Assembly (NCBI GenBank): GCA_003242035.1
Contig: QBMC01000006.1
Coordinates: forward strand, 1 to 57,079
Length of the DNA stretch: 57,079 nucleotides
Direction: 5' to 3'
Source: Nodosilinea foveolarum
GTDB lineage: Bacteria > Cyanobacteriota > Cyanobacteriia > Phormidesmidales > Phormidesmidaceae
Shown: positions 20,874 through 22,946 of the stretch, piece by piece
Position numbering within the stretch: position 1 is the first letter of the stretch
How the letters are laid out: the number at the start of each line of letters is the position of its first letter
Program-made: the position numbers and the translations under genes
Notes under the pieces: model-generated
Seen by the model: the letters and a program-made list of their open reading frames with translations, nothing else
Told to the model about the DNA's origin: nothing
The model's database searches: none

Positions 20874-21156
20874 CTTTTTTTTGCTGCACGACGGCTTGCC
20901 GAAAGCCCAGCACCACCAAAATATTAGAGAAGGTAAGAAAGAACTCGGCGCTACCATGCAGCCAGTCCACGTTGGCTAACTCGGTGCCGTAAGCTTGCTG
21001 AGCGTAAATACCCGCTGGAATCGTCACCGCTACAAATACTAGCAGCACGTAAAATCCAATCAAGGACAGCCGAGGCGTTTGCTGACTCTTGGTTAAAAAC
21101 CACAAAAAGCCTAGATAGGGAAATAGCGATAGCGCAAATAAAGACTCTTTATTCAT
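20848..21156 (-). CDS. DUF3593 membrane protein
   Basis: The 102-residue protein has three hydrophobic segments (LFALSLFPYLGFLWFL, SLIGFYVLLVFVAVTIPAG, FFLTFSNILVVLGF) and the conserved look of DUF3593, present in cyanobacteria and plant plastids and of unknown function. In cyanobacteria it commonly sits directly after the DUF2499 gene. Here the pair is separated by an IsrB element whose stop codon ends 1 bp before this ATG. Confidence 0.8.
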   Translation of the reverse strand: MNKESLFALSLFPYLGFLWFLTKSQQTPRLSLIGFYVLLVFVAVTIPAGIYAQQAYGTELANVDWLHGSAEFFLTFSNILVVLGFRQAVVQQKKANAATDAK

Positions 21157-21157
21157 C

Positions 21158-22297
21158 TTAATTTCCTGAGAGACCCCCGCTTTCAGCGGTGGGAGGGATA
21201 AGGGCTGGTTGAGTGGGGCTAGATGCCCCCGAAGCCAGCAGCCCGGTACTTCGTTGAATGAGTTGCACCTTAGAAGCAGTAAATTGTCCTAACCGTTTCC
21301 AGTTAATGTCGCTAACCGATACTTGCTTAGCCGTGTCCCCGCTGATCCAGCCGACATACTTACGTCCAGCCATCTCAGCCGAAACGAGATCGCCTTTTCT
21401 CAAGCCGTGTCTTGTAACCGTGCCACCGTAGGCGCGGCGCTTACCACCTTTAGCAGGCTGAAAGAGATGCAGTTGACGGCGGCTGGTCGGCGGTCGGCGG
21501 ATTACCTTAAACAAGGCATCGGTGAGTTGCACCGCCCCTTGCCAGACTGCGCCGTCCTCCCCTGCTCGGTGATATTGCTCGTAGCTAGTGAACTCAGAGC
21601 AAGCCAGCGCCACACCGTCTACAGCATGAGCCGCAGGCGTTTGTGCTTTCTTGTTCTTCGTCTTTTCTAGCTGTAGGTGAGTCCGCATGTTGGCCGTCTC
21701 CCAGCCGAATCGGGTGACGACAGGCGCGAGCTTAGCTAACCAAGTCAGCATGACGCGCTGACCCACCATCACGGGACTAAATCCGCCGTTGCCCCGTGCT
21801 TTGACGTATTCGTACACAATCTTAGTGATTGGCAAGATACGGCAAAGCTCAGAGACAATGCGCAGCTCTAGTTGACGGTTGGCCTTAATCGACGGCGGCA
21901 CCTTACGGCCCACCCGATTATCAAAGCGCTTTTCACGGTGATTGCGCTGCGCAAACGGTACATCGCGGTTAATCCTTCGACCGCGACGAGTGCGGCGCAT
22001 CATAGCCCGCTGCTCCATCCGCTTTTTAACCGTCTCGAACGGCAGAATCAGATGAGCCATAAACAACGTCGCCTTGGCTGACTGCACCCCAACGCCGCTA
22101 TAAAGCTTGCCAGGGTCAACGCCAACGACAACGGCTTGAGTCTCAGTGCCTGAAGACGATGCAACTAGCTGTACATAGAAGACGCCCGTATCAGACCAAC
22201 GCTTGACGGCTTTGCCTTGCTCTAGCCACTTCCTCGCCCTAGCAGGCTTAGTGGGCATGAGTGGCGTACCGTCTCCATCAACAACAGGAATTCGCAT
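21158..22297 (-). CDS. isrB: IsrB, RuvC-only OMEGA nickase-like protein
   Basis: IsrB is the HNH-less relative of IscB, the ancestor group of Cas9. Characterised members nick DNA using an omega-RNA guide. The 379-residue protein has the PLMP domain (GTPLMPTKPARARKWL, residues 10-25), RuvC-I with D61 (VVVGVDPG), an Arg-rich bridge helix (about 93-125), RuvC-II with E163 (VYEYVKARG), and RuvC-III with H224 and D227 (HAVDGVALA). Only about 60 residues separate RuvC-II from RuvC-III, so no HNH domain fits. The C-terminal domain (RRQLHLFQPAKGGKRRAYGG, DLVSAEMAGRKY) is the target-adjacent-motif-recognising part of the family. The last 11 residues are encoded by the element's end hairpin and flanking DNA. 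All catalytic residues look intact. Confidence 0.9.
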   Translation of the reverse strand: MRIPVVDGDGTPLMPTKPARARKWLEQGKAVKRWSDTGVFYVQLVASSSGTETQAVVVGVDPGKLYSGVGVQSAKATLFMAHLILPFETVKKRMEQRAMMRRTRRGRRINRDVPFAQRNHREKRFDNRVGRKVPPSIKANRQLELRIVSELCRILPITKIVYEYVKARGNGGFSPVMVGQRVMLTWLAKLAPVVTRFGWETANMRTHLQLEKTKNKKAQTPAAHAVDGVALACSEFTSYEQYHRAGEDGAVWQGAVQLTDALFKVIRRPPTSRRQLHLFQPAKGGKRRAYGGTVTRHGLRKGDLVSAEMAGRKYVGWISGDTAKQVSVSDINWKRLGQFTASKVQLIQRSTGLLASGASSPTQPALIPPTAESGGLSGN

Positions 22298-22512
22298 AGA
22301 GATAATCTCGCAAAGGGTTTAAGTCCCCTCGGACAACTAGATCAGCATGTCTCGCCTTGACGCGACGCCTATGACTTCTAGGCTTAGAGTGGTTCGAGCT
22401 GGGGAAGCACCCGAACGTCCGTAACAGATCTAGTCTCAATGTCCTAGTCAACTGTTTAACTTAGGGATGATCCCCCCAAGCCCGCGCTTTCAGCGCTGGG
22501 TGGTTGACGAAT
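21161..22512 (-). mobile_element. IS200/IS605-superfamily element carrying isrB
   Basis: The element is oriented on the minus strand. Its left end has a subterminal hairpin at 22481-22500 and its right end one at 21174-21193. Both show the same pattern, CCCA-x-CGCT-GAA-AGCG-x-GGG on the minus strand, as expected for ends recognised as single-stranded hairpins. No tnpA transposase is present, so movement would need one in trans. Exact cleavage points are not determinable here; I estimate them within about 10 bp. The element splits the usual DUF2499-DUF3593 neighbours. Confidence 0.75.
22298..22510 (-). ncRNA. Predicted omega-RNA of the IsrB element
   Basis: In IscB/IsrB loci the guide RNA is encoded upstream of the protein gene, with the guide at its 5' end taken from DNA just outside the left end. 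The 213-bp non-coding stretch upstream of isrB fits: it starts with the left-end hairpin and has several G- and C-rich complementary blocks (for example GTCCGAGGGGAC, minus strand, near 22330). It ends a few bases before the ATG. The guide should therefore read into the 3' end of the DUF2499 gene (about 22505-22525). The RNA ends are inferred, not seen. Confidence 0.6.
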
Positions 22513-22849
22513 TGACTTCTTTAGGTAAGCGGTCTGCCTGGGCGGTTAGACCGGTTTGCTTAGACTGTCGCCAAATCCACCAGGCGGCTAAGCAAACGGT
22601 GCAGTTGCCAACAACCGTTGTGGCGGCTTGTACGATTACTAGCCAGCTTAGAGCTGTGGAATTATCGAAAAAGTGCCAGGTACAGGCACACATGGCGCTG
22701 ACTAACGCCGGTAGCATCCCAAAAGAGAGCCAGCGCCAAGCCGTGTAGCCGCTGACTTCGGCATATTGCCAGATGAACCAGATGGCGGCGATCCATTCCA
22801 GTACGCTAGAGACATGAACCATCCAGGTCGGAATTGAGAGGGCGTGCAT
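22490..22849 (-). CDS. DUF2499 (Ycf49-like) membrane protein, C-terminus altered
   Basis: The 119-residue product matches the Ycf49-like DUF2499 family of cyanobacteria and plastids: SIPTWMVHVSSVLEWIAAIW, SGYTAWRWLSFGMLPALVSAMCACTWHFFDN and a further membrane segment ending WIWRQSKQ. About four hydrophobic segments are visible. The function is unknown. The last few residues (about SSTTQR) and the stop codon are read from the left end of the IsrB element, so the natural C-terminus was replaced at insertion. The conserved core is intact. Confidence 0.82.
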   Translation of the reverse strand: MHALSIPTWMVHVSSVLEWIAAIWFIWQYAEVSGYTAWRWLSFGMLPALVSAMCACTWHFFDNSTALSWLVIVQAATTVVGNCTVCLAAWWIWRQSKQTGLTAQADRLPKEVNSSTTQR

Positions 22850-22946
22850 AGGCCGGTGGTCACTTACGGTGATTTACGTTTCTTTTGTATTCTAGAGATC
22901 GATCAAAAGCCGCTGACAAAAACGGTTCAAAAATTAGGTAAACGTG

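Follow-up and report, generated by a model that had tools for sequence, protein, structure and literature searches.

HEARO RNAs, described in 2009, reportedly lie 5′ of ATGA or GTGA. In DtIsrB of Desulfovirgula thermocuniculi (8DMB), an RNA of 284 nt that includes a 20-nt guide is encoded upstream of the gene, and the TAM is NTGA, with R323 and Q326 reading bases 3 and 4 (PMC9581776, in its available text). CwIsrB (Crocosphaera watsonii) and DsIsrB (Dolichospermum sp.) are cyanobacterial, also have an upstream RNA and were functional in vitro, with a reported TAM of NTG in which the fourth base is not fixed (Hirano et al. 2022; the available text of PMC9581776). A Microcystis IsrB-like gene, orf2067, was seen in the laboratory to enter phage Mic1 at ATGA, taking along 207 bp from its upstream side and 59 bp from its downstream side (PMC11237433, in the part available), and few HEARO nucleases adjoin TnpA (PMC9755519, likewise in part).

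Here we describe a locus of the cyanobacterium Nodosilinea foveolarum, found in a stretch of 57,079 nucleotides (contig QBMC01000006.1) that is called the window. Judged from its sequence, this locus is very probably an element of the IS200/IS605 type, intact but non-autonomous, with an IsrB gene and an omega-RNA. It resembles DtIsrB in the full-length homology of the protein, its RuvC residues, equivalents of R323 and Q326, the upstream RNA and NTGA, but the two proteins are 35% identical in the structural match and the modelled RNA scaffold here has 192 nt rather than the 284 nt of the DtIsrB RNA with its guide. With the Microcystis element it shares an IsrB-like gene, a similar upstream stretch and insertion at ATGA; in contrast to the 59 bp that follow the Microcystis gene, the reading frame in the window runs nearly to the element's end. 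A sequence-only reading had placed the locus at 21158-22512; the locus is there, but its outer end was set 4 bases too far, as the element runs from 22508 to 21157 on the minus strand. The element comprises:

21157..22508, minus strand: complete IsrB element of 1352 bp, with 22508 as its left and 21157 as its right end
22317..22508, minus strand: omega-RNA scaffold of HEARO type (our R1 model; Rfam RF02033)
22481..22500, minus strand: left-end hairpin, found by eye, part of the RNA, with CGCTGAAAGCG
21158..22297, minus strand: IsrB reading frame, 379 aa, stop counted in the coordinates
21161..21232, minus strand: codons 356-379 of that frame, right-end DNA read as protein, not conserved (dN/dS, pLDDT)
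21174..21193, minus strand: right-end hairpin, with CGCTGAAAGCG

The protein is an IsrB that lacks an HNH domain

The N-terminal part of the protein has the PLMP/RRXRR features of an IsrB (PF14239, E 1.3e-47, 162 bits against the Pfam cut-off of 25), and D61, E163, H224 and D227 make up a three-part RuvC domain, with all four residues where the sequence-only reading had put them. These residues are highly conserved in an alignment of 67 rows (the window counted, and rows L082 and L095 being second readings of L002 and L091): D61, E163 and D227 are present in 67/67 and H224 in 66/67. An HNH domain, sought between RuvC II and III, is absent, as in an IsrB and not in an IscB; E163 and D227 are 64-81 residues apart in all 67 rows, a spacing into which HNH would not fit. 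The earlier claim that there is no room for HNH is thus borne out, and the identification as IsrB withstood the possibility of an HNH-bearing or catalytically broken protein.

Searching the sequences of solved structures gave nine matches at E 0.1, of which DtIsrB (8dmb_P) is the closest (E 7e-47, residues 2-359) and the only one aligned over its full length. For an AlphaFold2 model made from 21 aligned sequences (pLDDT 77.5, pTM 0.76), Foldseek likewise ranks 8dmb_P first (E 9.9e-30, TM 0.63/0.71), and with the RRXRR match these searches agree with what the sequence-only reading had expected of an HMM comparison. The best PHROGs match is a family with no function assigned (E 1e-142). IscB proteins (OgeuIscB, 7XHT and others) can be aligned in their N-terminal part, with the PLMP motif and the start of RuvC, and the window protein differs from them in having no HNH. 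The match of the NCBIfam IscB model to residues 5-166 (E 5.7e-30) would suit a gene outside the IsrB lineage, either an IscB or a derivative of one, from which the HNH domain was lost recently. We consider this very improbable: that match scores 104.5 against a cut-off of 175 and covers those residues only, the best solved relative over the full length is an IsrB while the best stretches of the eight other chains end at or before residue 162, and the HNH-less spacing is common to all 67 aligned rows.

A C-terminal TAM-interacting domain is also present, with the 8dmb alignment reaching residue 359 and R335 and Q338 conserved in 67/67 and 63/67 rows. Both residues lie in a KR(I/L)GQF motif, and from the phmmer alignment and their three-residue spacing we equate them with R323 and Q326 of DtIsrB, which would make them the predicted TAM-reading residues.

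Comparison with the 88% identical copy L002 gives a dN/dS of 0.094 (dS about 1.1), which supports a functional protein. This value is not uniform along the frame. In residues 1-355 dN/dS is 0.07-0.08 (dS 0.9-1.4), and in codons 356-379 it is 0.95, counted across a stop codon of L002; this argues that IsrB is under selection and that its tail is DNA of the element's end. Consistent with this, the last two blocks of the structural model (residues 361-379) have mean pLDDT values of 37 and 29, and in L002 the stop lies inside the right-end hairpin, leaving a frame of 371 codons. By these sequence measures, residues 356-379 are read-through of right-end element DNA.

An omega-RNA lies directly upstream of the gene

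The covariance model R1, for which we used 28 relatives but neither the window nor its 88% twin, matches the window from model position 1 to 193, end to end, at 22508-22317 on the minus strand (141.2 bits, E 2.5e-33). RNAalifold predicted 48 pairs on the alignment of the 28 relatives, and 39 of the 48 have at least one double change that keeps the pair. The Rfam HEARO model RF02033 is also matched over its full length (1-211, E 4.1e-12, in 501 bases searched), yet its 61.5 bits are below the curated gathering score of 83, and a search of the window at Rfam gathering thresholds returned no matches. The locus thus has the upstream omega-RNA of IsrB systems, on the strand and in the place where the sequence-only reading had suggested looking for it; the 213-bp non-coding stretch described there does hold the RNA, but measures 211 bp from the left end to the start codon. 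By the E values of R1 and of RRXRR, the locus is not a chance finding.

This association holds broadly among relatives. R1 was found in 69 of 72 IsrB-bearing loci, 28 of these 69 being those that built it, and was lacking in L057, L071 and L089; the 72 are what remained of 93 IsrB loci at that stage when fragments and repeats were excluded, and two tnpA loci searched alongside as controls had no R1 match (0/2). Further loci gave matches in 39/40, one of which (L162) has its RNA 2.2 kb upstream of the reading frame. In the genome of N. foveolarum itself, the window locus is the only R1 match.

Since the RNA is directly upstream of the frame and on the same strand, it could be read as a cis element of the isrB mRNA, akin to a leader or riboswitch, and not as a guide RNA. 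That is scarcely credible given the end-to-end match to the HEARO family, the coincidence of the RNA's first base with the inferred end of the element, and the omega-RNAs of cyanobacterial IsrBs that worked as guides in vitro (available text of PMC9581776). A scan of 21050-22900 gave one promoter-like site (0.9 in shuffled sequences), on the plus strand, and no promoter-like site for the omega-RNA; terminator-like sites numbered three (1.7 in shuffled sequences).

The element sits between two host genes

We took position 22508, the first base of the R1 match, as the element's first base. Three sets of within-genome copies (L003/L059, L005/L007/L008 and L041/L075) support this placement: upstream of the equivalent base the copies differ, at once in L003/L059 and L041/L075 and beyond seven shared bases in L005/L007. 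On the right side, the same sets diverge zero to three bases past ATGA. The hairpins near the two ends have CGCTGAAAGCG in common, in agreement with the matching pattern noted in the sequence-only reading, and subterminal hairpins at both ends are a feature of the IS200/IS605 superfamily. A second gene, the Y1 transposase, was sought among the reading frames of the element and none was found, in which it departs from IS200/IS605 elements that carry their own. Elsewhere in the genome there are two Y1_Tnp matches, with an omega-RNA at neither. The element is single-copy in its genome, and thus no recent movement is visible.

The flanks and the junctions are as follows:

22490..22849, minus strand: DUF2499 gene (PF10693, E 2.6e-40), ending inside the element's left end
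22509..22528, minus strand: inferred guide, 20 nt, at the end of the DUF2499 gene and directly 5′ of the RNA scaffold
21153..21156, minus strand: ATGA, predicted TAM and insertion target, also the DUF3593 start codon
20848..21156, minus strand: DUF3593 gene (PF12159, E 6.3e-42), starting at the target ATGA

DUF2499 and DUF3593 are cyanobacterial genes without an assigned function. In the window the DUF2499 protein is extended by five residues, STTQR, taken from the element's left end, and the IsrB stop ends one base short of the ATGA at which the next gene begins. DUF3593 was found in 38/38 genomes searched (its own counted), and of the loci read in relatives, 23 of 29 allow both genes to be followed side by side. 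In six of those 23, which are exactly the 6/6 same-genus genomes searched, ATGA forms the overlap between the stop of an uninterrupted DUF2499 and the start of DUF3593. As the left flank in the window ends two bases into a codon, ATGA placed next to it would again make such a stop/start overlap. These sequences fit an element that inserted cleanly, with TTC on one side and ATGA on the other; the exact empty allele, with the same flank and no element, was not found in searches of 17 other genomes and of viral contigs, and the same-genus junctions have diverged.

We also weighed whether the copy is decayed or domesticated, so that its protein is retained because it serves the host while the element no longer moves. 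The single copy, the flanking genes conserved across the relatives searched and the lack of a transposase would all suit this reading, but the ends, the RNA and the TAM are all intact, the nearest copy (L002) is at another site with a different gene after it, as for a mobile element, and relatives of IsrB occur in only 6/38 genomes chosen as relatives (E 0.001, own counted), a patchy distribution unlike that of a host gene. Domestication or decay is therefore unlikely, and an intact element remains the preferred reading. At E 1e-40 or better, relatives are present in 39 of 388 genomes of the same class (own counted). A relative from Crocosphaera watsonii, L011, is 60% identical to the window protein and may or may not be the tested CwIsrB.

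A proposed mode of action

We predict that the RNA starts in the flanking DNA, so that the final ~20 nt of the DUF2499 gene would serve as the guide; the position and length of this putative guide are drawn by analogy with the 20-nt guide of DtIsrB (PMC9581776, available text). Within three mismatches, the only match to these 20 nt in the genome is their own source, which is followed by GTCA instead of NTGA. Searched for the guide with NTGA at up to three mismatches, 17 other genomes gave no match, and viral contigs contained no exact copy of the guide's 17-nt end with NTGA.

IsrB with its RNA would recognise DNA that matches the guide and is followed by NTGA, and would nick the non-target strand. 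Because the guide match of the occupied locus precedes GTCA, the natural target would be the same locus without the element: by analogy with DtIsrB, the occupied locus may be spared and the empty one nicked. A nick in the empty allele would favour copying of the element into it, either to restore a copy that has excised or to fill a chromosome copy that lacks one. Movement would need a Y1 transposase supplied in trans, for which the two encoded in the genome are candidates.

The locus is clean, intact and single-copy with well-placed ends, a guide and a predicted TAM, and is therefore directly testable. The sequence-only reading had proposed it as a compact cyanobacterial nickase to be tested; its intactness stands, but not its novelty as a test object, since IsrBs of Crocosphaera and Dolichospermum have been published (PMC9581776, available text). 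This cyanobacterial IsrB adds one more to a studied family.

The putative fourth TAM base varies with one residue

To compare insertion sites we used a first set of 69 elements with a left end placed by R1 (68 loci and the window; L066 was excluded for its shortened RNA match). Four whose right ends are truncated or ambiguous (L006, L039, L050 and L046) were dropped, and the remaining 65 boundaries read ATGA in 52, TTGA in 10, ATGG in 2 and ATGC in 1. They were placed by rule in 43 cases (ATGA, or else NTGA, after the hairpin) and by hand in 22, and in some, such as TTGATGA in L003-L005, reading ATGA was a choice. The second set had 40 loci, from which we dropped L161 and L173 as duplicates of L016 and L031, L162 and L165 because their RNA is displaced or missing, and L189 for its unclear end; the 35 boundaries, all placed by hand, read ATGA in 27, TTGA in 6, GTGA in 1 and ATGG in 1. 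NTG is present at 65/65 and 35/35 placed boundaries, a count that is partly built in because the placement rule looks for ATGA or NTGA. Measured independently of placement, ATGA occurs 9-38 nt past the hairpin in 41/59 loci, against a mean of 15.7 and a maximum of 24 in 100 home-made dinucleotide shuffles. A fixed short target beside the insertion is a further feature of the IS200/IS605 superfamily.

In the 60 of the 65 first-set boundaries that have an aligned intact protein, the residue equivalent to Q338 agrees with the base after NTG in 60/60 (Q with A in 57, R with G in 2, Y with C in 1; p 2.9e-5, with relatedness ignored); R-bearing L046 has no readable right end. The second set with L162 and L165 gave 37/37 (Q with A in 36, R with G in 1), its sole R case, L190, reading ATGATGG, so that the boundary could be ATGA. 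Both sets pooled have Q with A in 93, R with G in 3 (one ambiguous) and Y with C in 1. Hand placement, which gave the whole second set and the first set's three non-Q boundaries, preceded any knowledge of which loci were non-Q. The relatives thus give natural evidence as to which residue reads the fourth TAM base; together with the published result for Q326R in DtIsrB, they predict that R in place of Q338 would move the TAM to NTGG or broaden it to include NTGG.

Loci beyond both sets were inspected for non-Q residues only and are outside these counts. Two of these, the Microcystis phages L198 and L199, break the pairing, with H at position 338 and yet ATGA. As they share their insertion with the Q-bearing phages L196 and L197, the change from Q to H probably came after insertion. 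The right-end hairpin arm is altered in L198 and L199 as well, with ATGA kept; decay of a fixed phage copy is possible.

A possible preference for start codons

We scored an ATGA boundary as start-like when its ATG begins a frame of 60 codons or more and an in-frame stop lies within 30 codons in the left flank; TTGA, ATGG, ATGC and GTGA boundaries were left out. Controls were ATGA sites of the same flanks, on either strand, outside reading frames of at least 80 codons, with the first 30 and last 4 bases of such frames not counted as inside. Start-like sites make up 27/52 boundaries against 144/663 controls in the first set (p 5e-6) and 13/27 against 44/214 in the second (p 0.003), p-values that are too small because the elements are related and some genomes hold several copies. 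When all ATGA sites of the first-set flanks are taken, inside reading frames too, 219/2621 are start-like. The enrichment may reflect either targeting or the survival of harmless insertions.

The proposal that cyanobacterial and cyanophage IsrB elements prefer the ATGA of start codons and so spare genes, with the fourth TAM base co-evolving with one residue (Q-A, R-G, Y-C), has in our judgement even odds. Seen this way, the relatives suggest how IsrB elements avoid harming their hosts. None of the literature matches listed is a paper on IsrB insertion at start codons. A role for Shine-Dalgarno sequences was considered separately and dropped: start-like boundaries were 18/22 with an SD-like motif and 9/30 without in the first set (p 2.7e-4), and the second set failed to reproduce this and leaned the opposite way (5/14 against 8/13, p 0.26).

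Annotated genes were compared with the boundaries in phages and plasmids. In four phage records, of nine with a match, an annotated CDS starts at the boundary (2652), and all four share one insertion. An annotated gene also starts at the boundary (2345) in the Dolichospermum plasmid CP070234. None of the four plasmid loci L200-L203 has a clear annotated start there (0/4): the annotated start in L200 is 7 bases on and in another frame, L201 has GTGA and no annotated gene at that point, L203 has TTGA, and L202 gave no clear reading. The omega-RNA is beside the gene in 4/5 plasmid loci, CP070234 being the one without it.

Structures in related copies

The phages L196-L199 are LMM01, MaMV-CH02, MaMV-DH01 and MaMV-DC of Microcystis. 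At about 1140-1300, upstream of the omega-RNA, the start of the left end (CTAACCCC...) is repeated in tandem three or four further times. These copies are 28-38 bases apart in LMM01, and their number and spacing vary between phages, forming a small array-like structure.

Two loci of one genome, L162 and L165 (the latter being the Dolichospermum plasmid record of L204), have the end of a group II intron (RF00029) at 2415-2492, immediately ahead of the IsrB start codon. In L162 an intron apparently now separates the omega-RNA, 2.2 kb upstream, from the IsrB gene. In L021 an inverted repeat is apparently inserted within the omega-RNA, at about 2841-2925, and this copy still scores 96.8 bits.
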